Shown here in pieces: positions 7,883 through 29,842 of a stretch of 64,000 nt of DNA (positions are counted from its first letter, which is position 1; every line of letters begins with the position of its first letter). The DNA comes from Lineus longissimus. Its lineage: Eukaryota; Nemertea; Pilidiophora; Heteronemertea; Lineidae. The notes under the pieces were generated by a model. That model saw nothing but the letters and a program-made list of their open reading frames with translations, was not told where the DNA came from and searched no databases. The position numbers and the translations under genes were made by a program. The DNA lies in the NCBI RefSeq assembly GCF_910592395.1, contig NC_088319.1:7874001-7938000 (forward strand). The letters are read 5' to 3'.

Positions 7883-8621
7883 CTACCCGACCAATCGACC
7901 GCCCGACCATCCGACCAATCGACGAACTAACTTGACTATACAACCGATTCACTCCTGGAAAAAAAGCGGAGGAACTTCCGACGGGGGATTCTACACTTCT
8001 GCCGAGCAACACAACAGCCCAACAATAGGGACCGATGGACATTGTTGTAAACTACAGTGACGGTATCCAGTTTTACTTCTACTATTCCGATTTTATTGTC
8101 TGGTCCGTGTGTATCATCGGTTGATCCTGTACTCCTCAACATGTGCCATTTGGCAGTGCATTCCCCACCAAAAACTGTCTGTATTAGACTGTTACAAATA
8201 GGTCCAAAAACAGTCCAAATCGTACTGTTGAGATATGCTCTCCACACACCGAAATTTACGCATGCGCATTACTAAACTTACTAAACATCAGTTTGGAGAA
8301 TCACAGTGGCATTTTGAAAGCCGCCGATACGCACTTTTTAGTTTTATTGGCGCCACTTGCTGTTCAGGACATTTTTGATGGTAGTTACTTGATATAAAGT
8401 ATTGCATCTACACAAGAAACACACCAAATGGCTCTAAAACATTTTCTTTTCGATTTACTACCGATACTCTCTTGACGGCGGCCTTATATCAAATCTACTG
8501 TTATGCAACCCTTTCGAATTTACCGGTACTAAATTAAATATTCAGTCCCATTCTAAACCGATTAAAATTGTTTCAGGGTCAAAATTCACCTCCCTTAGCC
8601 TTGTCTTGCCTGAACAAATAA

Positions 8622-9124
8622 TACGACAATCAAGATGTACAGACCGGGGGAGCTGGCAGTACGTACCCATAAGTCTTTGCGGTAGTCTCGCGCGTACCGG
8701 ATATAACCTATCAAGCTTTTCTCCTTCAGAGAAATACTGCGTTGCGCTCAACTGCCAATTATGCATTAGTCTGGTGGACACGAGGTTGGCCTTAAACTTG
8801 CTTGAAATCGAAAATTTGGACAACACACGTGTACTACAGCGCAAACGGCAGCATTCTGACATATAGAAACATGTGGTCTGATTCTATTTTTACTTGTCAC
8901 TAAGTGATCACGCGTCCAACCTCGTATGCAGGGTAATGTGGCTTTCTCATTGGTCGAACGTTAATTTTATTCACAGCCTTTTATAAGGCACTTGAGCGCA
9001 ACGCAGTATTTCTCTGAAGGAGAAAAGCTTTATAGGTTATATCCGGTTCGCGCGAGACTACCGCAAAGACTTATGGGTACGTACTGCCAGCTCCCCTGGT
9101 CTGTACATCTTGATTGTAGTATCG
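8622..9124. repeat. Fold-back: ~130-bp inverted repeat with ~240-bp spacer
   Basis: The left arm (about 8622-8751) and right arm (about 8992-9124) are inverted copies with few mismatches; for example GGGTACGTACTGCCAGCTCC in the right arm mirrors the left. The opposing ORFs in this stretch are shadows of the palindrome. Confidence 0.8.
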
Positions 9125-9532
9125 TCCGAATCGGATTATGAGCTAACTTAGGCCAACGTCAATTTCCAATGCCTGAATGCGCGGACTAAAATAGTGCGCG
9201 TTTAAAGACAACTCATATCACTTAGTAACTCACACAACGTAGTGAGTGTAATGGTTACGTGTATGTATAAAGTGTAAACAAAATTCATATATCCATCATG
9301 TCCATCGAATCTGAAAAAATTTGTGCAGACCCATGACAGTTCCGGTTAATTCCGGTACAGTTTGTTGCATTCCATACGGGCCGCGCTTGCCGATCCTGCT
9401 TTCACGACGCACCGCAACCACAGTTACCATGATTCCCGTTGTTGACGCAATTATTTCATGACGTCATGAGCCATTGACCAATCACGCAAGTAGATTTATT
9501 CACACCGGCGCCACTGTCTTGAAGTGTATCTA

Positions 9533-10065
9533 AAAATCGTCTGCTAGAACATACAGGACAACAACGTCGGCGGAGACAGTTGTGACATTTCATTGCAGAC
9601 GAAGTAAACGTCCTCTTCTTCTCGATTTACGTACTTTACTTCAAAAAGTCAGTTTTAACACTACTGCACAAATATAGAGTGGTCTTAAAGTTCCATTTGG
9701 ATAGAGATTTGACGGACTGATTTGGAAATTCATTCCAACCATGCAACTGTTTCAGAAATGAGAAAAAGCTTCTAGGTGTCATGACAGGCATTATGTGTCT
9801 TGCCTCTGCATTTTTGTACTCAGACATGTCAGAGGGTTTTCAACTTTCATATCATTGAAGAAATAATTCATTCCAATCTACAAGTATATCAATCACATCA
9901 TTTATTTAAAAATCGTCTGCTAGGACATACAGGACAACGTCGGTGGAGACAGTTGTGACATTTCAATTTTCATTGCATAGAGATTTGACGGACTGATTTG
10001 GAAATTCATTCCAACCATGCAACTGTTTCAGAAATGAGAAAAAGCTCCTGGGTGTCATGACATGC
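9533..10065 (+). repeat. Split direct duplication
   Basis: AAAAATCGTCTGCTAGAACA at 9533 recurs near 9908, and the block beginning TAGAGATTTGACGGACTGAT at about 9703 recurs at about 9978. The second copy is shorter because the segment between the two blocks is missing. It looks like a local duplication followed by a deletion. Confidence 0.75.
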
Positions 10066-10837
10066 ATTCAATTATTATTTACCACAAAGAGCTGCTTCTT
10101 CCAGCAGATATGAGACAGCTACCGGGGCGGGGACTATTTCTTTATGGGGCCTTATTGTTCAGCGTCTCCAAGGAATTCTATTTTTAGAGTCCAATGGGGG
10201 GGGGGCTTCCCCCCAATGTACTGACTAAAACCTGTCACTTTCAGAGAACGGGGGAGGGGGTTTGGGGGACTCATCCCCCAATGTACTGGCTATATATGTC
10301 AGAAGGACAGTTGTGTGAGTTCACTAGAGATTGCTCTTTACATATTATAGAAAGGATTGTTCAGAAAAAGACTACGTGCAAAATAACAGAAATTGTTTTT
10401 TTCTATTTTCGGAATACATCAGCCAAAAGTCCTAAATTTTGTGGCTGAGCGATTTTCACACATTCTGTTAGCAATGGTGGCCATTCCATGCAGTGGCAGT
10501 AAACGCACACAGCCGTCACAACTACGCAAGGCGTAATCTGCATCGGCTTTCTCGGAATTAATCAAAAGTTTATGCCGGATGAAAGAAGAAAAAAAAACCC
10601 GCTGAAAATCGTCACATGATCCAAGCCATGATCAAAATGGTCGATCAGTGAAAAAGGCCGACAATTAATGAATTTCCAGCCAACTGCTGCTTTGTTTTGG
10701 CTCTTTCTGTGGTTGTGTGGACTTCAAGCATGTCATGCTACGATTGTAAGTATCAGATTACAGGATTTAGGCCTATGCCTACCCCATGGCCATGTACCTA
10801 CTGCCTACTTAGTACTTGTACATATTGCAGTACTTCT

Positions 10838-11421
10838 TGGTAACCGGAAAAACGCCGACCGACCGACCGACCGACCGACCGACCGACCTACCGTCATATC
10901 CCTTTCGCTTTTCTATAGCACATGTATCTGTGTAGTGCCCAGCGCAATGGACGTGATGGATTCCGACATGTCTGACAGCAGCATCTTCAGTCAATTATAC
11001 CGGGAAAACGAGCCCACGCGGTAAGGAACTGATAACGTTACTCTAAAGATATGCTTTGTCTACATGGTCGGTGGATATAAAAACATGATTTGGGCCTAAT
11101 CTATGCACTGTATAAGTTTTTCTACTCGAGTGTCTCGACCGATGCAATGCATGAACTGCAACACGCAATATTGCACCTTATTTCATTTCACATGACCTGC
11201 TATCGTGGATTGGATATATCACATTGACTTATGAGACCTGAGACTCAACTACGAAACTCCTTGGGTCGGTAGGTCGGTAGGTCGGTCGGTCGGTCAGCGT
11301 TTTTCCGGTTACCCACAGATACATGCTATAGAAAAGCGAAAGGGATACGACGGTAGGTCGGTAGGTAGGTCGGTCGGTCGGTCGGTCGGTCGGTCGGTCG
11401 GTCGGCGTTTTTCCGGTTACC
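10838..11421. repeat. Inverted (CCGA)n/(GGTC)n units flanking the first exon of the KDZ-like gene
   Basis: A unit at 10838-10935 (GTAACCGGAAAAACG, a CCGA run, then CGCTTTTCTATAGCACATG) appears inverted at about 11314-11421 and partly again at 11259-11315. The first coding exon lies in the loop between the inverted copies. The pair could form a hairpin of ~90-bp arms. Confidence 0.75.
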
Positions 11422-14400
11422 GTACTTCTTGTACATGTTGGATGTTCTACATCATGGTGGTGTAGGCACAGTGAAGAAGGTGAGGAAACTTCCAACATGG
11501 AGGTAAGGTAAACATCGAGGACCCGATTAGAAAATGGCTTCAAAAATGGAATGCCGGACAGGAATCTCTGCACTTGTGTCGGCATATACCATGATAGATC
11601 AACCATATGGATCGACAACAATTCATTTGCTTACCGTACTGTGGGAGGGATGCATTTTATATTTCGAGTCCTCGATCATTACCTCGGGAGTTTCTTCACT
11701 TGCTATATACATTCTATCAAACAACTATACTTCAGTTCACTATGGTGTAGGCTAACACTATAGGCCGAGTCCTACGTACACCCTTCAACACCATATTCAA
11801 GGCAGGGCGTAGGCTGGTTTGGGCATGGGCCACATTACTCGGTAGTCATGGTTGGCCTAGTATGTCTATATACATGTCTTCATAAATGAGTGGTCATGTT
11901 ATACATTGCGTACATTTCTAGCATTGCCGATCCAGGTAGTCTACCTAGGGACTGCCTACATGTAGGCCAAGTTCCCACCGGCAGTCAATTTTTGATAGAT
12001 TGGTTACTTTTAATATGTTATAGGGTTATGCCGCTGTCGTTCAGTGGCTTTGGTGCGTGGTTGTTTCAAAGAAAATGGCACACAACACGGCCATCGCGGC
12101 ACGAGAGAAAGCCTCACATACACTGTAGTCAATATCAGGAAGTCTCAGCCAGCTTGGCCTAGTCACAAAAAAAACTAAGCTCACTGAACATTGAACCAAA
12201 AAGTATAGGCCCACCCCACCACCCTGCAGCCACCGTACATGTGCGTGTTGTTTCCTTCTTACCCAACTATATTCTTAGTGGTTGTGGTTGTGGCCAGCTG
12301 CCTGGACCTAGGCCCTATCTATGTACCTTCTCTTTGAAGAGAAATCAGAGCTCATTCAAAAAAAATTGTTGGAAGGCTGAAAACTCAGCTCATTTTCAGT
12401 ACCATCTTGTTGTTTACATATTGATCTAAAATTGACATTGCAATCATTATTCAAAAATAATGACATGGCTAGGTGCGAACCAAGATATGTTGACTGGAAA
12501 TCTGAGGTCCAGGAATTTGCCAAAGGTAAGATTTATGCCTTTTAAACCCTTTGTAAATTGGATGAGCACCAACCGGCTTCTGGTTTTACGATTAAAGGCC
12601 AGGGTCCAGTCAGATCTAGGTCAGTTGGTCGGTAATGCTGAAATGAATTACAGGTGATTACTCGGCAGTGGTCAATTCTCAAGAATGGACATAAAATACA
12701 TGTACAAGTATCATGTATTATTCAATTACAAATCAAACGGAGGTAAAATTGGTACAAACTAGTCCCATTGTCTACTAAAGTGTGAGCAAGTGAGTGGCAT
12801 GGCCCCTGGTCATTTATTCACTTCCCTTACTGGCATAATTTCTAATGGATTTTTGAATTTGTATTTTTCAGCTGTAAAAAGTGGCAGATCAGATAGGCGA
12901 AGGAATTTGAACACTGCTTGGTAAGGGATTTTCCATATTAGGTATTAAAAAAGATTTAGGATAAATGATCACTAATTGGAGCACCATCTCGCATTTTAAT
13001 GAAAATGAACAGGGATTTTCTTAAAGGGACTCTAGACAGTGGACAGTATGGGTCCCCAACAATAACATCTCACAGTTCATCAAAACTATTCATGCTTGTA
13101 CATGCAAGATATTTGATGTTTAACATATCATGACCCAAATACACTAGTCACCTGATGATGTCCATTGATATGTTACTTCTGCCTGTAGTCCCCCTTCAAA
13201 TCTTGAGTCTCGTATCTGCTTGTCTAATTTCAGTGATTCGTCTGCTCTGGATTCAATACGGATAGAAATAGAAGTCTATTCTAGCAACATCAAACAGCAG
13301 AAATACGACATTAGCAAATGTGCAGGTAAGAGTGAGACATTTTTTTCATATGGGCAGGGCATTGGTAAAAGTATGCAATTGAGCTACATGTACAATATAT
13401 TCGCATTTATAGCAATGCATGCCAGGCTCGTAAGATCACTCATCCGTGTGAAGAATTGGCCTATCAGTAGGGCATTATGAAGTCATCTTTTTCACATGTG
13501 GTGCCAGTTGGTGATATGTTGTACTGGATGTCTCAGTTGTCTCATCCTGAACCTCATGGCTAATACTCCTTTAGATATGCATTGTAGCCGGGGTATTACC
13601 CATGAACTATTCCCTGGCATTTCCAATATGCCAAGGTTTTAGATCTTTAGATGCAATAAACATTGGTGGTCAAGATGAATTGTCTTCGTTTTGAGAAGTC
13701 CATTAATACACAATTTCTTCATTTCATAGCCTCAATAAACCCTACTAAATTAGTTAAAATGCTACATATTGTATGGAGATTCATTTCTTCAGTTTCATTC
13801 ATGTGGGTATTGAGTATTTCTCCATCGTTGTTCATTTTAGACTCGTCGAAAAAACGTGGCCATCTCCGACAAAAGATGGAAAAAGAAAAGAAAAAACTTG
13901 CAGCAGTCATTGAGTTGTACACTTCGAAGTCTGGTGAGGAGATTGTGATTGAAGATGTCACTAAGGAAGATTACATTTTCCCTTGGGAGCAATGTTCAGG
14001 TCAGTTAATAATAGATTTATTTTCTTCAACTAAAGCCAAAAACAGACCTTCGTGGATCATGAAAAAACCCTGCATTATGTGAATTTAGGAAGACCGGAGG
14101 TAGCACCCAGCACCACTACTCCTCTGAAGCATGAAGTGAAAAGGCAATTGCGATGTGCTCACACAATACCAGTTGCTTGTCAGGGAAATGAAGTGGTTTT
14201 GATGCTCACATCTGTAATTGGAATGAAGTGTTTGATTGGATCTTAAATGCCAATATTACATTTGACTTATCTATTCCAGGTTACGCTGTCATGTCCTACT
14301 CTTTGAAGAAGAAACTGGTGGACATTCATGAACATATTCATCGATATCAGAAAGAGAAGCTTCTCCTTGTTCGTGAAATGAAGGCAGCTACGTCTTACCT

Positions 14401-15260
14401 GACAGGGCGAGTGATCAGCCTTAAAGAGATGCTGAAGGTGGCAGATAGAAGTCCTGAAGAGTTTGCAAGTGAGTTGGCCTTTGGTTCGGACTCCTGACTT
14501 GTAATGGACGCATGATCAAATGGGAACAAAACAAAATGAGGCCAATGAAGAGTGGCGAAATTTGATACTGAGTGATCTTATCACCTGTAAAGCAAATTGG
14601 TTATGTTTTTCGTGTCCTTACTGATACAGCTTTTATGCTGCATCTCTCCAACCATTTTCCTTTAGATCACTTCTTCTGTTTTTCATTACTCTAACCCTAA
14701 CTGGGTTTTTCGGTGGGATGTTGGGAGAAGAGTATAATAACATAGACTCCGAAAATGTGCTCATCTGGAAGTCTTTGGTCTGAATGTAAACTTTGACAAT
14801 TCATCACTGAGCTCATAGGTTCATGTGCACTTCAATCTCTGCAAGTCTAGTCAACATTTTCTTGTAAATCAGATTTTCCATTTCTTGTCCATTGGATTTT
14901 GGTGTGTTGATCCAATTTTGGTCTCCCTTTCAAATGATCTTTCTATTGTTTTTCTTTGCAGATTATCTAGATAGGGATGAGGCGTACCATTTAACCAGTG
15001 CAAACGATAGAGTAATCCGCGGTGCTATGGTGGAGATACGTGGAACACTGGAGTTCTATATAGATCTGCTCGAGCAGAGTGCCAATGTATTCCATACGGT
15101 CATGCGTGACGAAGAATATGTGGAAACGTTTGACATTCTTTATCAGGAGGATGAAGAAGAAGAAAGGGCCTATGAGTGTGAGAGTAATGATGATGACGAT
15201 GACGATGATGATGATTTTGTTGATGATGATGATGATGATGATGATGGAAATAATGAATAG
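10947..15260 (+). CDS. Seven-exon gene, KDZ transposase-like C-terminal region (304 aa)
   Basis: Exons: 10947-11020, 12473-12525, 12872-12920, 13234-13325, 13841-13999, 14280-14468, 14962-15260. All introns are GT-AG and all phases agree, giving 305 codons with a TAG stop; the acceptor at 12472 has a weak pyrimidine tract. The middle (a Lys-rich KKRGHLRQKMEKEKKKL, then YIFPWEQ, about residues 90-140) and the following helical segment with LLLVREMKAATSYL resemble the C-terminal part of Kyakuja-Dileera-Zisupton transposase-derived proteins; this is recognised by pattern only. The C-terminus is a run of Asp/Glu encoded by GAT/GAC repeats. The catalytic part expected upstream was not found. The start could be internal, because TTTCTATAG|C just upstream is acceptor-like. 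It may act at DNA in the nucleus if the family call is right. A distant AATAAA lies at 17306. Confidence 0.6.
15187..15246 (+). repeat. GAT/GAC microsatellite coding a poly-Asp tail
   Basis: Two runs of GAT/GAC triplets encode an Asp-rich C-terminus in the last exon of the KDZ-like gene. The long ORFs on the opposite strand and in the other frame here are shadows of this repeat. Confidence 0.8.
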
Positions 15261-17504
15261 AGCAGTCAAATACTGGTCATCGTGCTTCTGGTCAGTGGTA
15301 ATGATGGAAAGGGTTTTTTACTTGAAGGGCTTCTCCACGTATTTGGTTTGTAATTCTAAAAGGCCTTGGTCACCGGATATCGTTGTTTCTGATGGAAAAT
15401 GCCTTAAACAGGTAGCGCCCGTCCCAGGGAACAGGTGAATGGGTACTGCCCAATGGGGGGTCACCTGTACATGTGGTACTAATGCATTACACTATGTGCA
15501 CTACTGGAACTCCCTTGTCTGGCAATTGGTTTTGCCCGTCTGGAGTTGCCCCTTTAAGCCTTGTTTTGATTTCAGTCATCCATGGTATTGAACCCAAGGA
15601 CTGCTTGGTATTATTATTTTGATTCCCCAATCAACTAGAAGTTTGTGGAGCAGTGCTGCATTGAATAAGCAAGATAATTTGGAGATTACCTCTTACGCAG
15701 TTCATTGACTGAAGCCAGTAATGTTATGCAACGTTATGCAATGTTAGCCAAATGAACAGCTTGCATCAGCAGCTACCTAGGGGCCCTTGAAACTACTGAT
15801 ATCTAACAAAGGAAGCTTATTCCCACCTTATGTTTTGACTGGGCCATTCAAAACTCCCCATTTTTATAAGCGTTTCTTGATAGGTTCCCTTAAACTTACG
15901 TCACAATGTCACGCAACACATAAAAAGAATTAGCTGTGTTGATCGAGTCAGTGCGAGAATGATTGGGGCTGGGTGGGGAGCATTGGTATGAGCATCAGTT
16001 TATATATATTACTATGTCTTACCCTTGTAACTTCGTGCGAATATTGCACAAAGTCAAATGCCTTCTCATCAGACAGGTCCTGAACACGTGGTGTTTATAC
16101 TAGCAAAGCAGGAAAATTGTTTGCATCTCTAAAACTCAAACAGACTCCTTAGTCCTACAATCAATGCAGGGTGTCTTGTTAACTTCGGTTTATGAATCCT
16201 ATGGATTTACTTTGTCAATCGGCAATTTTTAGGGTTACTTTGAAACTGAAAATGATACAAAGGGCACAAAAAAAGCTTGTCTGTCAAGCTTTTATGCGAA
16301 AATACACATGGCCTAGTGGATAAGATGGTAAGGGTCTAGGGCTAAATGTCTCGAGTTCGAACCCTCTGCAAGGAATTTTTTTTTTTCACCGGATCGCCTC
16401 TGTGACCTGTCTCATCAATGAACTTGTGTAAAAAAGTGAGACCCGTCACTGGGTGTCTATCATGTTTAACAGTTTGGATGTTGTGTTCTTTTCACTTGGC
16501 CACTTGGGCTTTTTATCATGTTATGCTTAAATGAGACGTTCGTATTTTCTGATGTATTGTTAGGATGTGTGATGTTTCATGTAAATTATTCTTACTATGC
16601 TCACAACACCAATAGGACATTAGTGATTTGCAGTGATAGCATTGGGTGCCAAGATGATGGTAAAGTGCTCTTTTTGGGAATGATATAAAGACTAGAATAA
16701 CAGGCGGGCAAATAAATTTCTACAACGTGCACTTCATGAGTTGTTCAAAGAACGGTTTACTGTAAGCCAGGTAATATTCTTAAGCTATTATAAAGGGAAG
16801 CTGTCTGTAGGAGCTATTAAGGCTGTACATATAGTCTTCAGGTGTCATGGATTGTGTTATACATGTATGCTGCTATAATCATTTTCCTACATGTAAATGA
16901 GTGTAATACAGTGGAAGTAGTTTTGATGTGCATGTACTATGAGATGTGCGAGACCCTGATCATCGACGTGGTGTATATTGCCTACCTATGTAGCTGCTTT
17001 GCCTGTAGGGTCCCTTGAAGCCTGCTGCTTGGCTCAGTTTTCACCAGAATGGCATATGCAGAGTATTCATAGATCTTAAATTGTCTTCGGATGTAGTTTA
17101 TTTATAGAAAATGGGTGTTTACTGATTTCACATGACATGTATGAAATATTGCTCTGGATTGTTTTTGTAAATCAGGCAGACTGAATATCATATTTTTTCG
17201 TTAGATTGTTTGGCGTATTTGGTTTATTCGTGTCAAATGCAGCTTTTTCTGGCAGCGATTGTTCTTGTACAGATTCTTAAGAAAAAACCAGTGTCATCTT
17301 TCCAAAATAAAGAAGTGATTTGAGTTTATAGATTCTTATTTTCGTGTTTGTTTTTTGTTATCCCCTTTCTTTAGAATTAAGTAGTTGGTAGCAGAAAAAT
17401 GATCTGTACACAATGAGTTGGACAGAAGCAAGCATGGTTGAGCAGGATTATCTTGAGAAAAAATTGAAAAGGAGTGAAAGTCAACAACGAGACTCCATAC
17501 TACC
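15261..17504. other. Gene-free stretch, possibly 3' UTR of the KDZ-like gene
   Basis: No ORF with coding character is seen. Apart from a tRNA-like SINE head at about 16309 and an AATAAA at 17306-17311, nothing is recognisable. The AATAAA could end a long 3' UTR. Confidence 0.4.
16305..16385 (+). repeat. tRNA-derived SINE head or degenerate tRNA
   Basis: TGGCCTAGTGGATAAG at about 16309 matches a Pol III A box, and GAGTTCGAACC at 16353-16363 matches a B box with normal spacing. A T10-plus run follows at once, a Pol III terminator. The T-arm does not pair properly, so a functional tRNA is unlikely. Confidence 0.45.
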
Positions 17505-18373
17505 TCTATAATGCGGCCCCTATAATACCAGATTATCTTTTGCAAAAGTATGAACTAGGTAATAGTTCCTGTGATTAATACTGTATTCACCCTTCGGCCG
17601 ATTGGAACAAGATTTGCAATTTAAGACCAGACCGCCCTACTGTCTCTAGGTTGTGACCCCTGTGGTACCAGATTATCACGTGAAATATGATGTAAGCTGG
17701 ATATTTACTATTTTTGTCATTAGAAAGTCTGTTTCACTCAAGATATGCATTAAATTCATGAATCCCTCAGATTGGAACAAGATTTGCTATTTAAGACCAG
17801 ACCACCCTACTGTCTCTAGGTTGTGACCCCTGTGATACCAGATTATCTCGTGAAGTATGATATATGCTGGATATTTACTGTTTTTGTTATTGGAAAGTCT
17901 GTTTCATGCAAGATATGCATTAAATTCACGACTCCCTCAGATTGGAACAAAATTTGCTATTTAAGACCAGACCGCCCAACAGTCTCTAGGTTGTGACCCT
18001 TGTGATACCAGATTATCTCGTGAAATATGATATATGCTGGATATTTACTGTTTTTGTCATTAAAAAGTCTGCTTCACTCAAGATATGAATTAAATTCATG
18101 AATCCCTCAGAACAGAACGAGATTTTCAATTAAAGACCAGACCACCCTACTGTCTCTAGGTTGTGACCCCTGTGATACCAGATTATCTCGTGAAATATGA
18201 TATATGCTGGATATTTACTGCTTTTGTCATTAAAAAGTCTGCTTCACTCAAGATATGAATTAAATTCATGAATCCCTCAGAACAGAACGAGATTTTCAAT
18301 TAAAGACCAGACCGCCCTACTGTCTCTAGGTTGTGACCCCTGTGAGACCAGATATATTGTGAAATATGATTTA
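17505..18373 (+). repeat. 170-bp satellite, left of the LTR retrotransposon
   Basis: Monomers begin at 17601, 17771, 17941, 18111 and 18281 (period exactly 170 bp), preceded by a diverged partial copy from about 17505. Each contains GACCAGACCGCCC..., TCTCTAGGTTGTGACCCCTG and GATATTTACTGTTTTTGTCA. The last monomer is cut at 18373 by the LTR insertion. Confidence 0.92.
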
Positions 18374-18539
18374 TGTAGTGTAATCTGAATAAATGGGTCA
18401 TAGAGTTTGAGGTGCTGCCACCTCGTGATAGATTAGGGTACTGTACAAAATGGCTGTCATGTTCTAGAAATATACTTCAAGTGTTCAGAGTTTAAATCCA
18501 TCGTTATCTTCTTTCAGAACGCCCATCGGCAACTGAACA
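18374..18539 (+). repeat. 5' LTR (166 bp)
   Basis: It starts TGTAGTGTAATC and ends GAACA. It is a direct copy of 23191-23356, from which it differs at two places (CAAAATGG/CAAATTGG and TTTCAGAAC/TTTCGGAAC). Confidence 0.95.
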
Positions 18540-18552
18540 TGGTGTCAGAAGT
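18540..18552 (+). promoter_or_regulatory. Primer-binding site, tRNA-Leu type
   Basis: TGGTGTCAGAAGT directly follows the 5' LTR. Its complement, ACTTCTGACACCA, equals the 3' end of a tRNA-Leu with its CCA, the primer known for several animal gypsy elements. Confidence 0.8.
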
Positions 18553-18826
18553 TAAAGAAGACTCTCATGAACTGGGAGAGACTGTTATTTTGTTGAGAGA
18601 TGTCGATGTTGATGAGCTTTGAGCCAAGATTCGTGAATCTTTCCCCAGTCAGAGGAAATGTTTCTGATGACTGCATGTACATCTCGTGTGCATCATGTAT
18701 ATAAAGGTGCTGTGCAGTGACTTTTCATGTGCTGAACAGCGAGTTGCGCCCATGAATGATGAATCTGAAGATAATCTAAGGAACTTTCGTGACATTTTGC
18801 CCTTCCCTGTTACTGTTATTACAACA

Positions 18827-20905
18827 ATGGCACAATTCCAAGTGCAGCCACCTGAGTCTTTTGACTTTGGTAAGCCTGAAGGGTGGAATAAGTGGATCCG
18901 GCGATTTGACAGATTTCGACAAGTGTCTGGCCTAGCTGCCAAGTCAGGAGAGGAGCAGGTCAACACGCTGGTGTACTCCATGGGAGATGAGGCAGAGGAC
19001 ATTCTGACCTCGTTGAGACTCACTAATGACGAGAAGAAAGATTACGAAGTAATCAAAACCAAATTACAAGGTTATTTTGAACCTAAGAGAAATGTGATCT
19101 TTGAACGGGCGAAATTTAACCAACGTTTCCAGCGAGAAGGTGAAAGTGTCGATACTTTCATAACTGACTTGCATACACTCGCGGAGAAATGTGACTTTGG
19201 AACTTTGCACGATGAATTAATTCGCGATCGAATTGTCGTTGGGTTACGGGACAGTAAACTTTCAGAACGGTTGCAACTTGACGCTGACCTCTCGTTAAAG
19301 ACGGCCATGGATAAAACTCGCCAGAGTGAATCAATCAAGAAGCAACAAGGTGTTCTTCGTGCAGCAACTTCTCCGGCTGTTGTGGCCAAAGTTGGGTTCC
19401 AAAAAGGAAAAAAGTCAGGCAGTCATAAAGCAAAACAGCAGGACAAACCAAGCAGGCCAGCTGAAGGTAAACCTCAGGCCAAGCCTAAAGGAAAGGGTAA
19501 ATCGTGTCAGAACTGCGGTCTCAACCATGATAAAAGGCCGTGCCCAGCTAAGGACGCGGAATGTCATTTTTGTGCGAAAGTAGGTCACTACAAGAAGTGT
19601 TGTAGAACGCGCAAACGGGTCAACGAAATCCAGATTTCGGAAGATCAGCAAACCGCATTTCTAGGATCGGTAAACGTGGAATCTGAGGACGACGATTTTA
19701 ACTTATGGTCGAGTCGTGTAAAAATTTCTGGTCATGAGCTTGATTGGAAAATCGATACAGGCGCTGAAGTAACATGCCTGCCGCTACGCGATTATCGTGA
19801 GAGTTTCGGAAAACTTCACAAGTCCAATAAAGTCTTAGTTGGAGCTGGCAGTAACAAGCTTGATGTTCTTGGAATGTTTCATGCTAAGCTTGCTAAAGGG
19901 CAGCACGCTACATTGGCAGAGGTGTATGTTGTGCGCGGCCTAGCAAAACCGTTGCTAGGAGATAAAGCGATTCGTAAGCTAAATCTTGTGTCAGTAGTCC
20001 GCGCCGTTTGTAAAAGTCAACTCACCAAATGGAAAAAACAGTTCCCAGAACTTTTCGCAAATCTTGGGAAAATGACTGGTGAGTACGAGATCAAGTTGGA
20101 AGACAGTGCGAATCCGTACGCAATTTCATCACCACGTAGGGTTCCCATACCGCTCTATAATAAAGTGAAAGCCGAACTGTTACGTATGGAAAAATTAGGG
20201 GTGATCTCAAGAATAACTGAGCCTACCAATTGGTGCGCGGGAATAGTCGTTGTTCCAAAATCCAATGGAACTGTCAGGATCTGTGTGGACCTAACCAAGT
20301 TAAATGAGAGTGTAAAACGTGAGAATTACACTCTGCCATCAGTTGACTCTACACTAGCGCGGCTCAGTGGAGCCAAAGTTTTCTCTAAGCTAGATGCAAA
20401 TTCTGGCTTTTGGCAAATTCCTCTTAGCAAGGAGTCGTCCCGTCTTTGCTGTTTCATAACGCCATTCGGGAGATTTGTTTTCAACCGCCTTCCTTTCGGG
20501 ATTTCATCAGCTCCTGAAATCTTCCAGCGCAGGATGCAGGAGATGTTAGATGGTCTGGAAGGGGTAGTGTGCCACATGGACGATATTCTAGTGTTTGGGG
20601 CTGATCAGGCAGAACATGATGAGAGACTCAAAGCTGTTCTTCAGAGACTTAAAGATGCTGGTGTCACACTTAATGAGGCCAAGTGTGAGTTTTCAGTAGA
20701 CAGGGTTAAGTATCTTGGGTACTTGATCACAGCCGAGGGAATATTTCCAGATAGTGACAAGATAAACGCTATCCAGAAAATGGCAAAACCGCAAAATGTG
20801 TCAGACATTAGGCGTTTCCTTGGCATGGTAAATCAGTTGGGAAAGTTTATTCCTAATTTAGCGGACAAAACCGAGCCTCTTAGGTCTCTTCTCAGCAAGA
20901 AGGAA
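18827..20905 (+). CDS. Gag-protease-reverse transcriptase of the Mag-type element
   Basis: I use the ATG at 18827, which gives the MAQFQVQPPESFDFGKPEGW start common to Mag-type Gag; an in-frame ATG at 18686 is possible. Gag is about residues 1-220; a zinc knuckle pair follows (CQNCGLNHDKRPC and CHFCAKVGHYKKC, about 226-262). An aspartic protease has its DTG at WKIDTGAEVTCLP (about 309). The RT has FSKLDANSGFWQI, RLPFG and the catalytic box CHMDDILVFG (about 582), with His where Tyr is common. The true frame leaves this ORF at about 20905; the printed reading to 21121 is out of frame. Role: capsid protein, polyprotein processing, cDNA synthesis. Confidence 0.9.
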
Positions 20906-22544
20906 TCAATGGTGTTGGGGGTCATCTCAGGACCATGCTTTCCAGGATTTGAAAGCATGTTTGTCTTCTACAACGGTACTCGGAATGTACGACCCAAGCC
21001 GGGACACTGTTGTTTCTGCCGATTCATCCTCTTTCGGGTTTGGTGCCGTGATAAAACAGAAGCAGGAGGACGATATGTGGAAGCCTATTGCATATGCGTC
21101 GCGATCATTATCGGACACTGAGAAAAGGTATGCGCAGGTGGAAAAGGAAGCATTGGCGTCAGCCTGGGCCTGCGACCGATTCCAAGTGTATCTTCTGGGT
21201 AAGCGCTTTACCCTAGAAACGGACCATAAACCGCTTGTTGCGCTACTAGGTTCGAAGAGTGTCGATGAACTGCCTGCGAGAGTTCAACGTTTTAAACTGC
21301 GTATGATGCGTTTCTCATATGACATCGTACATGTTCCGGGGAAAGAACTTTATACTGCAGATACGTTGTCCAGGGCACCTATATCTTCGCCATTGTCTAC
21401 TGTCGAGGAAGGATTTGCGCAGGATGTAAAAGCGTATGTTGACATGGTTGTTGAACACTTACCTGCGACGGAGAAAAGGCTCGAGGAAATCCGTCAAAAA
21501 CAGGAAGAAGACGAAGTTTGCCGTCAGGTTGTCAAGTATTGTCAAGATGGATGGCCGGACAGACCATTTGTTAAAGGGGCAATACTGCCATATTACCAGG
21601 TTGCCGGTGAACTGACTGTTATGGATGGACTATTGATGAAGGGAACCAGAATAGTCATTCCTACATGTATGCGCTTAGAACTGTTGGACAAAATCCATGA
21701 GGGCCACCAAGGTATCACTAAGTGCAGAAGGCGAGCCCAAGAATCAATTTGGTGGCCGGGACTCAGTTCACAAATAGAGTCACTAGTCCAGAACTGTAAC
21801 ATTTGTGCTCGAGAGCGGGTAGTTAGGCATGAACCAAATATTACCACCGAATTCCCTAAGAGACCATGGCAGGTTGTTGGCACTGACTTTTTCGAGTTTA
21901 AAAAGCGCCATTATCTAGTAGTGGTGGACTATTTTTCTCGCTATATCGAAATTGCTAAGCTGACCGAGCTCTCGTCGGGGGCTACTATCAATCATCTTAA
22001 ATCGATCTTTGCTAGACATGGTGTGCCAGAACGGGTACGTTCTGACAATGGCCCTCAGTATTCAGCGCAGGACTTCGCAGACTTTGCCGATGTGTACACA
22101 TTTCAACATGTTACAAGTTCCCCGCTTTACCCGCAAGGGAACGCAGAAGTTGAACGTGCTGTAAAAACTGTTAAAGGACTAGTGAAGAAAGGCAAGGATC
22201 CATATTTAGCTTTGCTGACTTACAGAGCTACACCACTGTACCATGGGTACAGTCCCGCCGAACTTTTGTTTGGGAGACGTCTTCGTACGAACTTACCGCA
22301 ACATCCAAATATGCTGGCCCCAGCATGGCCAGATCTAAACAATCTTGTACAAACAGAACAGGATTATCGCATGAAAATGGCAAAAAACGCAGACAGGCGT
22401 GATGGTGTACAGGTGTTGTCAGATCTTTGCGAAGGAGAGAAAGTTTGGGTGTGCGATAAAAACATTCCCGCCATAATCACGGGAAATGCTGAAACACCGC
22501 GGTCGTATACTCTGGAGACTGAATCTCCAGGACAATCCAGCTGA
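20906..22544 (+). CDS. RNase H-integrase of the Mag-type element (frame-shifted from the RT)
   Basis: Continuing in the +1 frame from about 20906, the frame encodes the RT connection (HAFQDLKACLSS), RNase H-like VSADSSSFGFGAVIKQ with EKEALA and TDHKPL, then the H2C2 module (IHEGHQG...CNIC). The integrase core has all three acidic residues visible: GTDFFEF, RSDNGPQYS and GNAEVERAVKTVK. It stops early at 22542-22544 within the tail. The frame break at about 20897-20910 (AAGAAGGAATCAATGG) looks like a single inserted base; a programmed shift inside pol is less likely. Confidence 0.88.
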
Positions 22545-22767
22545 TGAATCAGTGCAGGAGAACATTTTGCCTCCCCCAGAGAGACAGAGTATTGTGTGGC
22601 CAAACGCTGGACAATCTTCTGAGAATGGCCAGAATAATGTTCAATCAGATCAAAGTGTCTCTAGCACGACTGTGAATAATTCTCCAGGACGTTCTGCTAG
22701 TTGTTCTGATCAATATGTAACCAGGTCAGGCAGGGTTTCAAAATCTGTCATTAAACTAGATCTTTAG
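22520..22767 (+). CDS. Out-of-frame C-terminal tail of the Mag-type Pol
   Basis: A second frame, open from about 22486, carries a Ser/Asn-rich segment and ends VTRSGRVSKSVIKLDL, the usual close of Mag-type Pol. A one-base indel near 22515-22535 would explain the shift from the integrase frame. Confidence 0.6.
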
Positions 22768-23180
22768 GGTGTGAGAGTGACCGAGGGTTAATCTGAAATT
22801 TCAGTGACATTTCATAGAGAAATCTAAGTAATGATTTTCAAATAGTGCTTTTGTGGTATTCTCTCTATACTTGAGGATGTGATTTCATATTCGGATTAGT
22901 TGGAAGTTATCGAGTTAAAATGTTTATGTTTAGAGTTTCAATATCTTTCACATAAGTAGTGTTTACTCTCCAACGTATTTTGGACTTTCGTTTGTCTTAA
23001 GTATAGACAGGAGTCAGTAGTAGCCGAGTAGGATTTGAGATATATTTCCACAGCATTTTAGTTTTGACTTAGTTAAGCTAATTTTCTACGTGTTTGTATG
23101 TTTGTACACATAGTTTGCCTAGACCAGACTTGAGGTTGTGATGCATCCTGGGTTATTGGAAATTGGACTTTCAAAGGACT

Positions 23181-23356
23181 GAAAGGGGGATGTAGTGTAA
23201 TCTGAATAAATGGGTCATAGAGTTTGAGGTGCTGCCACCTCGTGATAGATTAGGGTACTGTACAAATTGGCTGTCATGTTCTAGAAATATACTTCAAGTG
23301 TTCAGAGTTTAAATCCATCGTTATCTTCTTTCGGAACGCCCATCGGCAACTGAACA
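23181..23356 (+). repeat. Polypurine tract and 3' LTR
   Basis: GAAAGGGGGA at 23181-23190 is the polypurine tract; the 3' LTR is 23191-23356. Between 22768 and 23180 there is only AT-rich untranslated sequence. Confidence 0.92.
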
Positions 23357-23459
23357 ATTTAAGCTGGATATTTACTGTTTTTGTCATTAGAAAGTCTGTT
23401 TCACTCAAGATATGCATTAAATTCATAAATCCCTCAGATTGGAACAAGATTTGCAATTG
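23357..23459 (+). repeat. 170-bp satellite monomer, part right of the LTR element
   Basis: The sequence starts ATTTAAGCTGGATATTTACTG, which continues the monomer cut at 18373, and runs on to GAACAAGATTTGCAATT. It marks the original end of the satellite array. Confidence 0.9.
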
Positions 23460-23655
23460 TGCCCAAGTCACAGTAATAGTCTTCGACTTCAGTAAGACAG
23501 CCGGACCAACCGTACATGTACCGATCAATCACAACGACCACAACACCAATTCCACATGCGACAACGGCGACATTTTATCTTGATTTTCGTTTTTTGCATC
23601 TCCTAGGTCTATTTTCATTGATTTGTGTCGAAATCGGTAGGGAGAATAACGGAGG

Positions 23656-26600
23656 ATGTCTAAGATGAGAACAGTGAGCTCAAGTGGACGTGTGCGTCGA
23701 CGTGCTCCTGTGAGTGTGATGAAGGTTTGTATTAATTTGTTCTTTTGCCATCATTTCATGCACAGCATCATGACATCAAATCAACACGAACACGTCATGA
23801 CGTGTGTGTTGTCGATCATCACGTTTATTTTATGTCCGCATCGTTTGGGGCTCTGGAGGACAAACTACTGGTTGTATTGCTTTGAAGTTTGGTTTTTATC
23901 AATCTTCACCTCAAAACCAAACAAGAATTTTTCATTTTAGTAACCATGGTAGCGAAATATTTTTTTTCTCGTATGCATAGAGTAGGCCTACATTGGATTT
24001 GGACATTTTTCGCTCTGCCTAATGATCAATTTCTTTGGTGGCAAATTTCAACTCCGTTCCGGCCCGTTTTGGTCCGTTTCGGTCCGTTCCTGCTTTCTTA
24101 CGAACCCCTCTGTACTGGACGGTTTAGGCTATTTCTTGACCAATCTGGATGAAATGTTCAGGTTATTGTTCTTTTGTGTCCATCTACTAAGTGTGCTAAG
24201 AATGAATGAGAAATATCCAGAAAGAAAATACGGCCTATCCAGGTGACCCCCAAAATGACAACTTGACTTCGCTGATGAATTTTTTCTATTTCTGCACCGA
24301 GAATACTGAACTTCAAAAATCCTGTTTGGTTTTGAGCTGAAGATCAATAAAAACGAAACGAATGGAAGTTTTAAGTGGTAACACAAATCACTGCTTCTGT
24401 GAAATGTACATATGTATTACTGTTGATAGGGCCCCGGGTAGGGCCCTCTGAGCTTTCTCGCAGTATACTGACAGGCGATGTTTAAGATTAGATTAGAAAC
24501 AAATACTTTTTATCATTGCAGCTCTATGAATGGTCTCAGTCTAAGGCAGCTTGTAGAGTGTCTGGCTGTCGGATGTATGGAAGGGTTCTCATGGACCTGG
24601 ATGGCCATCTAGCACGATGCCACAGCAGTGTGTCAAGGAGGCAACATGACCAGCTACCTGAATGCAGCCAAGGTGCTGCAACTGAAATGCTCTCCACAAG
24701 TATGAAGTGTAAGAATGTGGAGACATGTGAGGTGCGAGGCTGCCGGAGTAATGGCCTTATGAGAACACTGACACGACATTTGAAAGAGGTGCATTCAATG
24801 TCGAGGATAGAGTATGCTGCCTACAAGATTTTCATGACTTTACAGTAGGTATTTTCTTTCCATAAGCTTGATTAAAAGTTATGGTATGATATTGATAAAT
24901 GAACAGACTTTCAAAAAATGGCTTAAGATTGCAGAATCAGGCCTGTCTCTCCTTGATTGATGACTTTAGTTGATCATGTTGAACTTGGAGAACGATGATT
25001 TATTGCACTAGGCCAGTAGGCCTTATTGTTCAGAGGCATCGGGCATAACATTAGATTCATGTAGGCGATATTTGTATTCTGAAATCATCATGATAACTTT
25101 CCTGTGAGCAACCGTCGTGACCGTAGCAGCAGATAATTAGGTCTGCTCTCTTTCACTTCAGGATCAAACAATCCACCTACGGCTATGAGCACCAAAAGAG
25201 GAATACAAAGCAATTGGATCAGTGGGAAAGTAAGTGTTCTTAATTGAATGTAGAGTGCATTCACTGCTCCCTGGATAACTCGCAGAACTGTTGATGAGTT
25301 CGATGAACACATACTGATACTGATGATGTCGACATCTGTGTCACTGAGATTAAATGCAGCATAGGAACATCAAGATTGAGTAGTATAAACACCCTTACAA
25401 TTTAGATTTGGCTAAGGCCATTGTCATTCATACACAAACATCAATCTTAGACTACTACCTACAGCAAAAATAGAAGGGACTATTGTACAATTTACAAATA
25501 CCGATAATCATTCTACATATGGACGAGTAGGTTTGTTTATGGAAATTAGACGATGATGAAGACAATGCCATGCTGATCTTCCAAGAGTTGAAAGAGGACT
25601 TGTGAGAGAATAAGCACAGTGTTACCTGTGTACATGTACATGTGTGGGTAATGCTGGCCTTTTTTTTTAGTTGAACCAGGATTAAGCGGAATTTACCCGA
25701 TGCCAGTGGATCAGCAAGTGTCATCCATGAAGCCAATCAAGAGCATCCTTTCAGACACTGAGAAAGACTCCTCTAATGGTATGTATTATGTTTCTGTGTA
25801 TTAATGAGCCTTACTGCATTGTGCGCATCCTAGTGCATATCCCAAAATTTCCAGGAGCAAGAGAAGAAGTGACACTATGAAATGGAATAAAATCTAAATG
25901 GAATGATCTGGGAATAGAAGGCCAAGTCTTCTCGTTATAAATATTTTTGTGGCGTTTGGCCCTTTTGTACTTTACAATAGTAAACCTGGCTTATAACGGA
26001 TTCCCATAAACCGACTGTTTGCCTATAAGGAATTGATCTACCAAGTCCCGTTTTACTAACTGTATCGTTTCTGCCTCATTAATTCATCGTGTATTAAACG
26101 GATATCATTGGACAAAAAGTCCTGGTCACAGTGAATCCGATATATGCAGGGTTTACTGTATTTCCAGTGTTTCAAATTTCAAAGGGATCTAATTATGGGT
26201 AGCAAAAATCATTTTAGGACCATGTGAATGATGTGCAGACAGCTTGTTTACAGTGTCATTGAAATGAATGTTCTATAGAGTTTCCCCTTCAATCTTTTCA
26301 GAGACAGAGATAACTGTAAGGAACTGGTTGGATATAGCTCAAGAGAGCTACATCAGCGCCAACGTTACGAAGGAGGTTTGCCCGGTGTTTGGAGAGATTG
26401 GAGAGGAGTGCATATTTATGGTGAAAGTTGAGTCTAGATGGGGGGCACTCATGGACAAAACTGATACCAGGATTTTTAGGGGTCAAGGAGTAGGGAAGCA
26501 GGTGATTTGTTATACTTTGCACCTAAGAAAGAGATTTTGTGATGCAATTGAGAAACAGAGGTATGTAGATGAATTCAAGAACAGCACAGAAAATAACATT

Positions 26601-26756
26601 TTTATAATGTCCTTTGGATCCTCTGGCAAGCAGTTTACGTATCCATGTTCAGCATGTAGATATTTCCACAAAATGGATATGATCAGCATGTCGTATTCTT
26701 GGAGGGAGTTGGAAACCTCGAAGCTCTTGGATGCAATTCTCTTTTTTCATCAATGA
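23656..26756 (+). CDS. Five-exon zinc-finger gene carried by the giant element (340 aa)
   Basis: Exons: 23656-23724, 24522-24844, 25162-25229, 25671-25778, 26302-26756. All junctions are GT-AG with matching phases, totalling 341 codons including the stop; the donors GTAAGT (25230) and GTATGT (25779) and the T9AG acceptor (25670) are strong. The N-terminus is basic (SSSGRVRRRAP). Exon 2 encodes two C2H2-like units of C-x4-C...H-x4-H type (CRVSGCRMYG...H...CH and CEVRGCRSNG...H...VH). Exon 5 encodes a ~150-residue Cys-containing domain (GEECIFMVKVESRWG, GKQFTYPCSACRYF) that I do not recognise. Exon 2 read alone stops just past the donor, which could give a shorter protein. AATAAA follows at 27175. 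The fingers suggest DNA binding, perhaps to the element's ends; that is inference. Confidence 0.7.
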
Positions 26757-27174
26757 CTTGGATCAACAAAACACTCGAGACATCACAGCTATGAACTTGA
26801 AACTTGGTGCATATAACCCCCTATATCAGATAACCTCTGGTGCTGAATTTCGGTCCGATTTGATTCTCAACTTGGCCACCCGAATGTGGATATCTAAAAA
26901 GTGTGATATCTCGCTTATTAATGACTTGTTTTCGATAAGAACTTTTGTGGTTGGTACTCATAGCAAGGATACATCATATATCTTATTCAAAAAGATTTGA
27001 ATGACTGGTACATGATTGATTGAATGATTGATTGTTTGGTGCATTAACATGATTGATTGATTGTCTAGAAAGCAAATTTTACTATGTACATGTACACACA
27101 ATGTTTTTCCTATCCTAAATTTATTATGAGATGGGCTTTGCATTTTGATGGAACATATGTTGTTGGAACTTGCA

Positions 27175-27180
27175 AATAAA
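27175..27180 (+). terminator. Poly-A signal of the zinc-finger gene
   Basis: AATAAA lies ~420 bp after the stop codon at 26756, the first such signal on this strand downstream of the gene. Confidence 0.5.
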
Positions 27181-29763
27181 CATTTGGCAATATAAATAGT
27201 GTGTTTTTTATTCACTTTATGAAATGAGTGGTGCGCAATGTGTGGAGCTGAGCACCTCTATACACTGATTTTTGTTGGACATGGAGGAACCATCAAGAAT
27301 ACTTTGGCAGCATCACCTATTCATATCTATGGTCTCAGTTTGGGTTTGGTGGCCAACAGTAGTTACTGATGAACAAGTATTCAAAACAGGCCTTCCTTCT
27401 GTGCATGTACTTCCAAAAGAATGCAAGTTTGTCTGGATCCGTTTTAAAAGACATGGTCACATTACTGGCTTGCATCAAAACAGTGTTCCCATGCGAGGAT
27501 GTGATTTGTCTCCTTGAAGATCCCTCGTCGCTGGTTTATTAACTCTCTCAAGTGAGGTACCTCTGGCCAACCCACTAGCACGGTATATACTGGGTGACTT
27601 GGATTCCAACTTTTAATTTAAGAAAGCCAGCAATTCCCAATCTTTGGCACAAGGTCGTCATTGAATTGAGTGCAGTGTGTTTCGCTACGAAGTACATGGC
27701 GTACAGATGTAACCAACCAAAAACTTAAAGTGACGGGTGAATGATAGAATGAGAGAGAAAATTTAGCAGTACGAATTATGGCGAGCCATTAGCATGCCTT
27801 CCTTGCGTGGAGCTACTGAGAGCCTCCACATCGAATGCATGTGCCTCAGTTACGCCCATTTTTCAGACTTACTTGTGGTATCAGTGTTTGCCTGTTAGTG
27901 TTATCACAGTAAATGAACAATTGGCTGGCTTACATGTACATGTATTGGCCATTGTCTCTGTGGCATGATCTGTGGTTGTCAGTGTCAATTTTGTTCATTA
28001 AGAACAACCTATGAGCTTGGTTTCTATTGCGATCCCTGCCTGGTGGAAGGTAGTCATACATACCACACCGGACGCAGATGCACTGGTTTGATAGGGCAAT
28101 AATTGAGAAATTCGAATCCATCACAGCATTCAGACTGTCAACCTCTACAAGTATGAGACACAGACTCTTCCACTTCAGCGACAAGTCAGACGACTTGTTC
28201 GAGGCCCGTCTTAAGCAGTTTTAATCAGCTCAAAATGGGAATAAATATTCACTTTAGCAATATTAAACAAGGTTCCTCTACAGCAGGATCAAAAATCTTA
28301 AGTAAATCACAACATTAACGGCATTTTGTTCGGTCTTTCTTGCCACGTATATTTGTGTACATTATTCCTGTTATACATGTACACGCATGTGCAAAGGAAG
28401 CCAGCTCACGCAGAGATAAAATGCTTGAATATTAAGTCTGCTCTTGGAAAATTGACTGTTGGGTCTCAGTGCCACAGATCTCAAAGACGTCTCATGAACA
28501 TTTTTCCTTGTGTTGTCTCCATCATTTCCAACAAAACAGGGTCACATGTGCAGTAGCCATTGGTCCCGTACTGCTTGTTGGAACTGTGCCATAGATAAAT
28601 ACCATGAAGGCCTATAAATACCATTCAAGGCGCTAATCTAGAAAGAGAAAGCAAACTTTAGAGAATACAGTCATGATTGAATTCATAAAATTCTGTTGAA
28701 AAATGGTAACACAAGACTAAGAGGAGAAAGGTAAGCATAGGTATGCATAGCCTAAGGCCAAGTGACTGCATGCACAGCGCAAGGTACAGCTAGCACGTCT
28801 AAACCAAGCGATTTCAGTTTCACTTCACTTGCTCAAACTCGGTATGAAAAGCAACATTTTCGGGCCCTTTTAGATCTTATAATAGTCAAGTTCACACATG
28901 CCCATATAAGGCTTTATTTTGGCTAGCAAGCGCACGCGGTGGTCTAAAAATAGGCCCGAACAATGGGCCGAACAAAAGACATGATGACGTAGATAGCCAC
29001 AACAAACTTGGTGTGAACCTGTCTATGCACACACAAACAATGCAACAGAACAATGAATACTTACCATTGCTTTGGTTTGTTTTGGAGTCCATGGTGAAAA
29101 GAGTAAGTCAGCGAAAATCAAGAACTTTGACCGGCTTTATTTTAAAATGAATTTCAAGTTTTTCTGTTGTTTTGCAAAGACAAAGAAACGAAAACGAGGT
29201 CAGATTTGGCCCGTCAGATTGCCGCCTGGTACTGTCGTCACCTGGTCACAATCAGGGAGAAGTGTCTTCGGCAGTCGGGTACCTGGATGTGAGTGTGCAA
29301 GTCGCGTTTTCCTCATTGGGGAGGGGGATCGAGGGGAGGGGCAGTGATGATTCTCGGGAGCGCCCGGGGGGAGGGGCACCGTTCGTTCGTCGGGAAAGGA
29401 CCCAATCAGGGGACAGGGGGGCGCGCGCGGACGGCGGATCCTGTCCCAGGCAATTTCGGCTCTACGCACTTTTTCTGCCCCTCCCTGTTTATTTACCGGG
29501 GGCGAATTTATATGAATAAACCGAGGGAGAGATGGCACCATTTTCATGGAAAAAGGTTCCCGGCCTCGGCCTCCCTGCGCCCCGCTCGCTCCCCGCTCCG
29601 ACCCTGTAGACCCTCGGAGAAAACCAAGAAGACGTAAAGAATGAAAAGCTCTGAATCTCAGTTTGAAAAACAGATCCGAAAAGCCCCCTTCAGCAGCTCC
29701 GAGCATTCCCGACAATAAACGAAAGGATATTGTTGAGCGCCTCTACAGGAAGGAGTTGAAAAT
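27181..29763. other. Right part of the giant element, no supported gene
   Basis: Small coding-like pieces exist but do not assemble. A 43-codon frame runs from 27238 (GHGGTIKNTLAASPIHIYG). A plus-strand frame from 28079 to 28224 ends before an AATAAA at about 28239. A minus-strand first-exon candidate, 29092-29065 (MDSKTNQSNG), has a perfect GTAAGT. 29200-29640 is GC-rich with long overlapping ORFs in several frames, which is compositional. Confidence 0.4.
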
Positions 29764-29842
29764 ATAACAGTACCAATTGGACAGTTTTTGTCTATTTTGG
29801 CAACAGTAACATATGTACAGTTTTTTAGTGGAGTATACGTTG

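Follow-up and report, generated by a model that had tools for sequence, protein, structure and literature searches.

A large DNA transposon in the Lineus longissimus genome

A stretch of 64,000 nucleotides from the nemertean Lineus longissimus (assembly GCF_910592395.1, contig NC_088319.1, positions 7,874,001 to 7,938,000, forward strand; hereafter 'the window', in whose coordinates positions are given unless a contig is named) harbours a DNA transposon at 8154–29842, with a length of 21,689 bp including insertions. It is a real transposable element that was recently mobile. Moreover, it is very probably a non-autonomous derivative, by internal deletion, of a large KDZ (Kyakuja-Dileera-Zisupton) transposon of the cut-and-paste type; it was probably mobilized in trans, and a fuller relative (the 'C6 copy') is present on another chromosome. 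A previous inspection of the letters of the window (the sequence-only reading) had suggested that it represents a new large group related to KDZ, or else a member of such a group that has undergone deletion; this proposal is supported, with the window element being the deleted member and the C6 copy holding the KDZ domain.

Termini and empty target site

The element is flanked by an exact 7-bp target-site duplication, CATTTGG, at 8147–8153 on the left and 29843–29849 on the right, both of which were read directly and corroborated by an empty site. Joining the left and right flanks produced a sequence that matched 350 of 350 bases across the junction at its best place in a 342-bp tandem array (29843–32518; 7.8 copies, 99% matches), and six further junction-spanning places in the array matched at 98.86–100%; the 50 bases of the left flank farthest from the element did not match the array. 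Both the exact duplication and the uninterrupted target in the neighbouring 342-bp units, as put forward in the sequence-only reading, were thereby recovered.

The left terminal inverted repeat (8154–8234, + strand; first letters CAGTGCATTCC) has the same terminus in the C6 copy, and the right one (29762–29842, − strand; last letters GTATACGTTG) recurs in the genome search. The inverted ends are imperfect, yet global alignment of the first 80 bp with the reverse complement of the right end scored 86, as compared with a mean of 26.4 (s.d. 6.2, maximum 49) among 1,000 shuffles, which agrees with the ~80-bp inverted ends proposed previously. The termini are of the form CA...TG, reading CAGTGC...CGTTG in the window and CAGCGC...CGTTG in the C6 copy.

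Both ends carry an array of short motifs, with ACTGT/ACAGT at 8174, 8188, 8210 and 8224 on the left and four ACAGT at 29767, 29781, 29803 and 29817 on the right; the motif starts are 21, 35, 57 and 71 as counted from the left end, and 22, 36, 58 and 72 from the right end. A density of at least four ACTGT/ACAGT motifs per 100-bp interval was reached only at the two termini, among 21,590 intervals of the window element and among 44,203 of the C6 copy, and only at the right end among 79,901 intervals of the region of a third copy (on C2). The repeated AAAACTGT/GTACTGTT blocks noticed earlier are therefore a feature confined, at this density, to the ends.

Copies of the element

The genome (391 Mb) was searched with the left end (201 bp) and the right end (243 bp), which yielded two and three matches, respectively, both counts being lower bounds. 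Three copies were found: that of the window, the C6 copy with both ends, and the C2 copy whose left end is missing. On C6 the two ends face each other and span 44,302 bp, so that left and right ends belong to one element and not always to different ones. The right end has different flanks in the window, on C6 and on C2. As for the 7-bp duplication, it is exact in the window, whereas the flanks of the C6 copy (ATGAATT and GTGAATT) are identical at only six of seven positions, and the C2 copy lacks the left end. The C2 copy consists of the right end plus much of the core (the element minus later insertions), of which the leftmost ~900 bp and the part equivalent to window 15,408–24,447 are missing.

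Divergence among the copies was determined from eight segments common to all three (7,418 ungapped sites; 75 gapped columns omitted), and was 0.57% between window and C2, 0.59% between window and C6 and 0.67% between C2 and C6. Furthermore, a degenerate terminus pattern matched nine places in the genome, five of which are known ends (reversed control, 0 and 0); the other four are C2:4467067, C3:6124483, C9:1020897 and C9:1534720. With nine matches genome-wide, a swarm of short copies was not found by this pattern.

A KDZ transposase and its 8.4-kb deletion

To the KDZ profile (PF18758), the genome has 56 matches at E≤1, one of which, scoring 60.4 bits and with an open frame of 199 amino acids, falls within the C6 copy. 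The profile search on a fuller copy, as suggested in the sequence-only reading, gave 108.7 bits (cut-off 26.6) for the joined C6 exons, a model of 680 amino acids that is approximate in the C–E interval and at exons F, J and K, and that lacks N-terminal exons. Eight of the C6 exons (A, B, C, E, E2, G, H and I) have AG and GT borders. Because this C6 transposase matches the KDZ domain, the element is assigned to KDZ. D273 and D394 are invariant in all 15 aligned rows and a conserved E (GEE region) is found in all 13 rows reaching it; these residues, presumably the catalytic D, D and E of the transposase, are encoded by exons E, F and G, which belong to a stretch that is missing from the window and C2 copies.

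The missing stretch is 8,408 bp long. Its deletion junction, with TA microhomology, lies at 12470–12471 and is the same in the C2 copy; it takes away exons A to H plus 62 of the 118 bases of exon I. The window retains the 3′ part of exon I (RCEPRYVDWKSEVQEFAK; 12470–12525, + strand), exon J (13841–14000, + strand; 3′ boundary approximate), a C-terminal part reading ...FPWEQ that can be aligned to the corresponding region of fish KDZ proteins, and an open frame with exon K (...LKKKLVDIHEHIHRYQKEKLLLVREMK...; 14192–14494, + strand; exon borders approximate). In C6, exon I reads ...KKSAV-RCEPRYVDW... across the right edge of the stretch, of which window and C2 keep the right part only, and the same 42 residues of exon I are contiguous in a relative of the transposase at another locus (L037). 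Since exon I is continuous in both C6 and L037, the comparison indicates an ancestral 8.4-kb stretch that was lost from the window and C2 copies.

Without the KDZ exons, including those with D, D and E, the window copy cannot make a working transposase. A Pfam scan of nine window pieces returned only matches below cut-off. The 'KDZ-like gene' of the sequence-only reading is thus KDZ in origin, yet it is a 3′ remnant and not a gene; its observation that no complete catalytic domain can be seen holds, the KDZ domain being located in the 8,408 bp that the window lacks.

Relatives of the transposase

Among 30 KDZ loci fetched out of the 56 profile matches, seven, counting the C6 copy itself, have exons in common with the C6 transposase, and relatives on C8, C11 and C13 exhibit 83–87% amino-acid identity to it. 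Nonsynonymous (dN) and synonymous (dS) divergence from the C6 transposase were 0.083 and 0.72 for L037 (232 codons), 0.074 and 0.95 for L041 (226 codons) and 0.110 and 1.08 for L020 (202 codons), that is, dN/dS of 0.08–0.12; codons with stops and gaps were omitted, overlapping matched pieces were kept, and L021, L023 and L043 are without dS. In a tree with 12 fish and seven mushroom proteins, the seven Lineus loci formed one separate group (support 95/96), within which the C6 gene grouped with L020, L037 and L041 (100/99) and L021, L023 and L043 formed a second subclade (92/88). In this tree the Lineus rows fill under one-third of the columns, and the mushroom proteins are unlabelled as to KDZ group; among the 120 listed of 464 matches in a third protein search (7,994 candidates scored), the mushroom proteins were unlabelled as well.

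Within the stretch fetched, the DNA of the C8 relative shows no similarity to the C6 element past position 10,444 of the latter. The transposase relatives on C8, C11 and C13 may lie inside or outside such inverted ends; for the second gene of the element, described below, no close genomic copy was found outside the three elements.

A second KDZ family is present in the genome (C6:9693266, C3:11336494, C3:11458747, C2:14819865 and others), in which the domain is spread across several matches; four of its copies score equally (45.3 bits), and none of these loci has exons in common with the C6 transposase.

A double zinc-finger gene between the transposase and the right end

In all three copies a second gene ('gene 2') is located between the transposase and the right end. 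Its exons, derived from the annotated protein P0001 (297 amino acids) and all on the + strand, are those of two CX4C...HX4H zinc fingers (24522–24844), IKQSTYGYEHQKRNTKQLDQWE (25162–25229), LSGIYPMPVDQQ...KDSSN (25680–25776; boundaries approximate) and a C-terminal domain (26302–26756; stop at 26754). P0001 begins within the first finger, with the first Cys pair upstream of its start. The C-terminal domain has no Pfam match in the scanned window pieces and joined exons, so that the earlier description as a zinc-finger gene with an unknown C-terminal domain stands. A protein search with gene 2, which needs shared 5-residue words and similar protein length and whose scope lies outside fish KDZ gene neighbourhoods, found one match among 124 candidates (E≤10), namely LOC135483682 isoform X2 of Lineus longissimus on the C2 contig; a PDB sequence search gave one match (E 0.4).

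The fingers of gene 2 recur at C4:12716788 (48% identity), 6,399 bp downstream of the L043 KDZ match and on the same strand; both finger patterns are kept there, and an insertion seems to split the exon. Because this C4 locus sits in the other Lineus subclade, the pairing of KDZ transposase and gene 2 is probably older than the divergence of these subclades. Another piece of gene 2 was found at C11:8959385–8959572, with the L041 KDZ match 55,867 bp upstream on the same strand, a distance that would be weak evidence of pairing if taken alone. Between the C-terminal domain and this C11 relative, dN was 0.165 and dS 0.866 (96 codons; the C11 copy has a frame shift, around which a few codons were counted twice). 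These values, together with those of the transposase, demonstrate past constraint on both genes. Near the relatives on C8, at both C13 loci and at C6:7391689, gene 2 was not found, which argues against strict pairing unless the copies there have decayed. Overall, gene 2 is probably an old partner of the KDZ transposase.

Proposed mechanism and alternative explanations

From the observed ends, duplication, empty site, shared deletion and transposase exons in a two-ended copy, the following course of events is proposed. The fuller element on C6 would encode a DDE-type transposase, whose gene has multiple exons and whose N-terminal region is rich in cysteine, followed by the two-finger protein. 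The transposase, and probably the zinc-finger protein too, would bind the four ACTGT motifs of each end: the mirrored arrays fit an end-pairing protein–DNA complex, from which we infer binding by the transposase or the gene 2 product. The transposase would then cut at the CA...TG termini, and insertion would create the 7-bp duplication. The window and C2 copies would descend from a copy that had lost 8.4 kb of the transposase gene and then moved in trans. Given their common deletion and different right flanks, either the deleted copy moved at least once or gene conversion took place; if it moved, it was served by the transposase of another copy, and thus the deleted element probably moved in trans.

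Several points weigh against this interpretation. The divergence between window and C2 is hardly lower than that of either from C6, so it is the shared junctions that point to a common deleted ancestor, and gene conversion may explain the junction common to both. No copy is more than a candidate for autonomy, and the C6 copy contains a gap of 100 Ns close to the 3′ end of KDZ as well as nested insertions. Its exon model leaves out any exons lying in the C–E interval or preceding A; exon F ends at a GT border on the right, while its left (5′) border is unsettled; and the CxC3 score of the joined exons, from an approximate model, is 24.7 bits versus a cut-off of 26.6. As for the ends, the ACTGT motif was picked after they had been seen, the equal motif spacing is in part a restatement of the inverted repeats, and the 7-bp length is based on one perfect and one 6/7 duplication. 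Structure prediction for gene 2 (P0001, single sequence) was uninformative, at a mean predicted local distance difference test score of 33.3.

The likeliest alternative is that the zinc-finger gene is a passenger, whether captured from the host or belonging to an older nested element, and no part of the transposition machinery. That the protein search met no homologue outside the Lineus longissimus genome favours it, but the position of gene 2 in all three copies, its occurrence on C4 in the same orientation, at 6.4 kb downstream from a KDZ match that belongs to the other Lineus subclade, and the constraint on its C-terminal domain all speak for a partner, as does more weakly the piece 55.9 kb downstream of the C11 match; a passenger gene is therefore conceivable though rather doubtful. 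It is very unlikely that the 8.4-kb stretch was inserted into the C6 copy and that the element never had a KDZ transposase. Two of the three copies are without the stretch and share an identical junction with a 2-bp (TA) overlap, as such an insertion would have it; nevertheless, the reading frame of exon I continues past the boundary and into DNA common to the three copies, with residues contiguous in L037, exons J and K on the far side can be aligned to the C-terminal region of KDZ proteins, and the edges of the stretch bear no inverted repeat.

For the identity of the element as a whole, other classes with large inverted-end elements come into consideration, such as Polinton/Maverick, Dada or a hAT element with 7-bp duplications. 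Size would suit this assignment, as would the duplications of 6–7 bp in Dada (PMC3706591) and of 7 bp in hAT7 families (PMC12730594), but KDZ is the best domain match and no hAT, MuDR, polymerase or integrase family was found in the nine window pieces or the joined exons, which made up the scan outside the nested retrotransposon described below; it is highly improbable. Least credible of all is a segmental duplication or satellite-linked rearrangement that mimics a transposon: the element does border a 342-bp tandem array, yet the empty site and the 7-bp duplication coincide with its exact ends, and the right end recurs with other flanks on C6 and C2.

Nested insertions and size of the element

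The window copy has itself been invaded. A long terminal repeat (LTR) retrotransposon of 4,983 bp (18374–23356, + strand), absent from the C6 copy and situated in a region that C2 lacks, has TG...CA ends, a 5-bp ATTTA duplication, ~167-bp terminal repeats that are 99% alike, and reverse transcriptase, RNase H and integrase domains; it is not part of the DNA transposon. It adjoins a 170-bp tandem repeat (satellite; 17600–18375) inside the DNA transposon, which is in the C6 copy too and in the region missing from C2. Three smaller insertions are likewise absent from C6: a 498-bp palindromic element resembling a miniature inverted-repeat transposable element (8621–9122; two 136-bp arms, 96% complementary), a 1,112-bp insertion with internal direct repeats (9228–10339), and a 582-bp insertion (10840–11421) with GGTAACCGGAAAAACGCCGACC inverted ends, internal CGGT/CCGA simple repeats and a 10-bp duplication, GTACTTCTTG, whose empty site is seen in the C6 copy. 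Subtracting all four from 21,689 bp leaves a core of ~14.5 kb; the 16.7 kb given by the sequence-only reading for the element without the LTR retrotransposon is confirmed, and is reduced by the three further insertions.

Some stretches of the C6 copy that are missing from the window also look like inserted elements: stretch E, which has TTAACCC near its start and open frames that by eye resemble a piggyBac transposase; stretch G, with CCCTCACCGAAA as inverted ends; and stretch B, which recurs elsewhere. At element position 16,608–23,809 of the C6 copy, an insertion holds frames that by eye look like a piggyBac transposase and a THAP-type protein. Stretch J (1,540 bp), in contrast, is in both C6 and C2 and missing from the window only. 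The ancestral element would then have measured about 24.5 kb (core plus 8,408 plus 1,540 bp). Stretches H (3.0 kb) and I (6.0 kb) of C6 may be insertions there or losses elsewhere; counting them as ancestral would raise the size to about 33.5 kb. In addition, a 301-bp repeat with CAAGGTCACAGAGGTCAAA-like blocks is located at 58866–59738 of the window, and also inside the C6 copy near its left end.

Comparison with known KDZ and two-protein systems

The best-listed proteins for the C6 transposase are fish KDZ proteins, mostly with CxC3 and ~40% identical to it; a priapulid protein is one among the 42 listed. Fish proteins with CxC3 plus KDZ (for example, P0002 of Onychostoma macrolepis and P0003 of Paramormyrops kingsleyae) have the same domain order and ~40% identity over the catalytic part, a comparison made between proteins only, and the Lineus sequences group apart from them in the tree. 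Identity to a mushroom KDZ protein that carries no KDZ-group label (P0043) is 22%.

Before a fungal study of 2025, Zisupton was the only KDZ group well characterized with ends and duplications (PMC12730594). It resembles the Lineus element in its KDZ transposase and multi-exon gene (PMC9297572), but its target-site duplications are reported as 8 bp (PMC12730594) and not 7 bp, and the same difference separates the Lineus element from Zisupton-1_PGr, which has been placed in Dileera (PMC12730594). Kyakuja of mushrooms shares the 7-bp duplication and the 5′-CA...TG-3′ termini; however, it is described as having no inverted repeats and its described families carry a TET/JBP gene (PMC12730594), whereas the Lineus element has ~80-bp imperfect inverted repeats and a zinc-finger gene. 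PIF/Harbinger is likewise a two-protein DNA transposon (PMC2836001), with a transposase plus a separate element-encoded protein, but belongs to another transposase superfamily. The literature searched, to the extent of the text available, contained no description of a KDZ element from a nemertean, nor of one with a zinc-finger gene beside the transposase. We file the element as an animal KDZ lineage unassigned to Zisupton, Dileera or Kyakuja.

A broader and distinctly more tentative proposal is that these elements constitute an animal KDZ lineage of their own, neither Zisupton nor Kyakuja, comprising two-gene elements of at least 24 kb with a CxC3-type transposase and a dedicated double-zinc-finger protein, 7-bp duplications, CA...TG inverted ends and ACTGT arrays at a fixed 14-22-14 spacing that the second protein would recognize, and with deleted copies moved in trans. 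This may be so, although we would not yet favour it.

With its ends, an exact empty site, a transposase-bearing copy and two deleted copies, all <1% apart, the Lineus longissimus system allows movement in trans and the function of the second protein to be tested directly. Furthermore, it suggests that animal KDZ elements combine a duplication length and terminal repeats in a manner unforeseen by the division into Zisupton, Kyakuja and Dileera.

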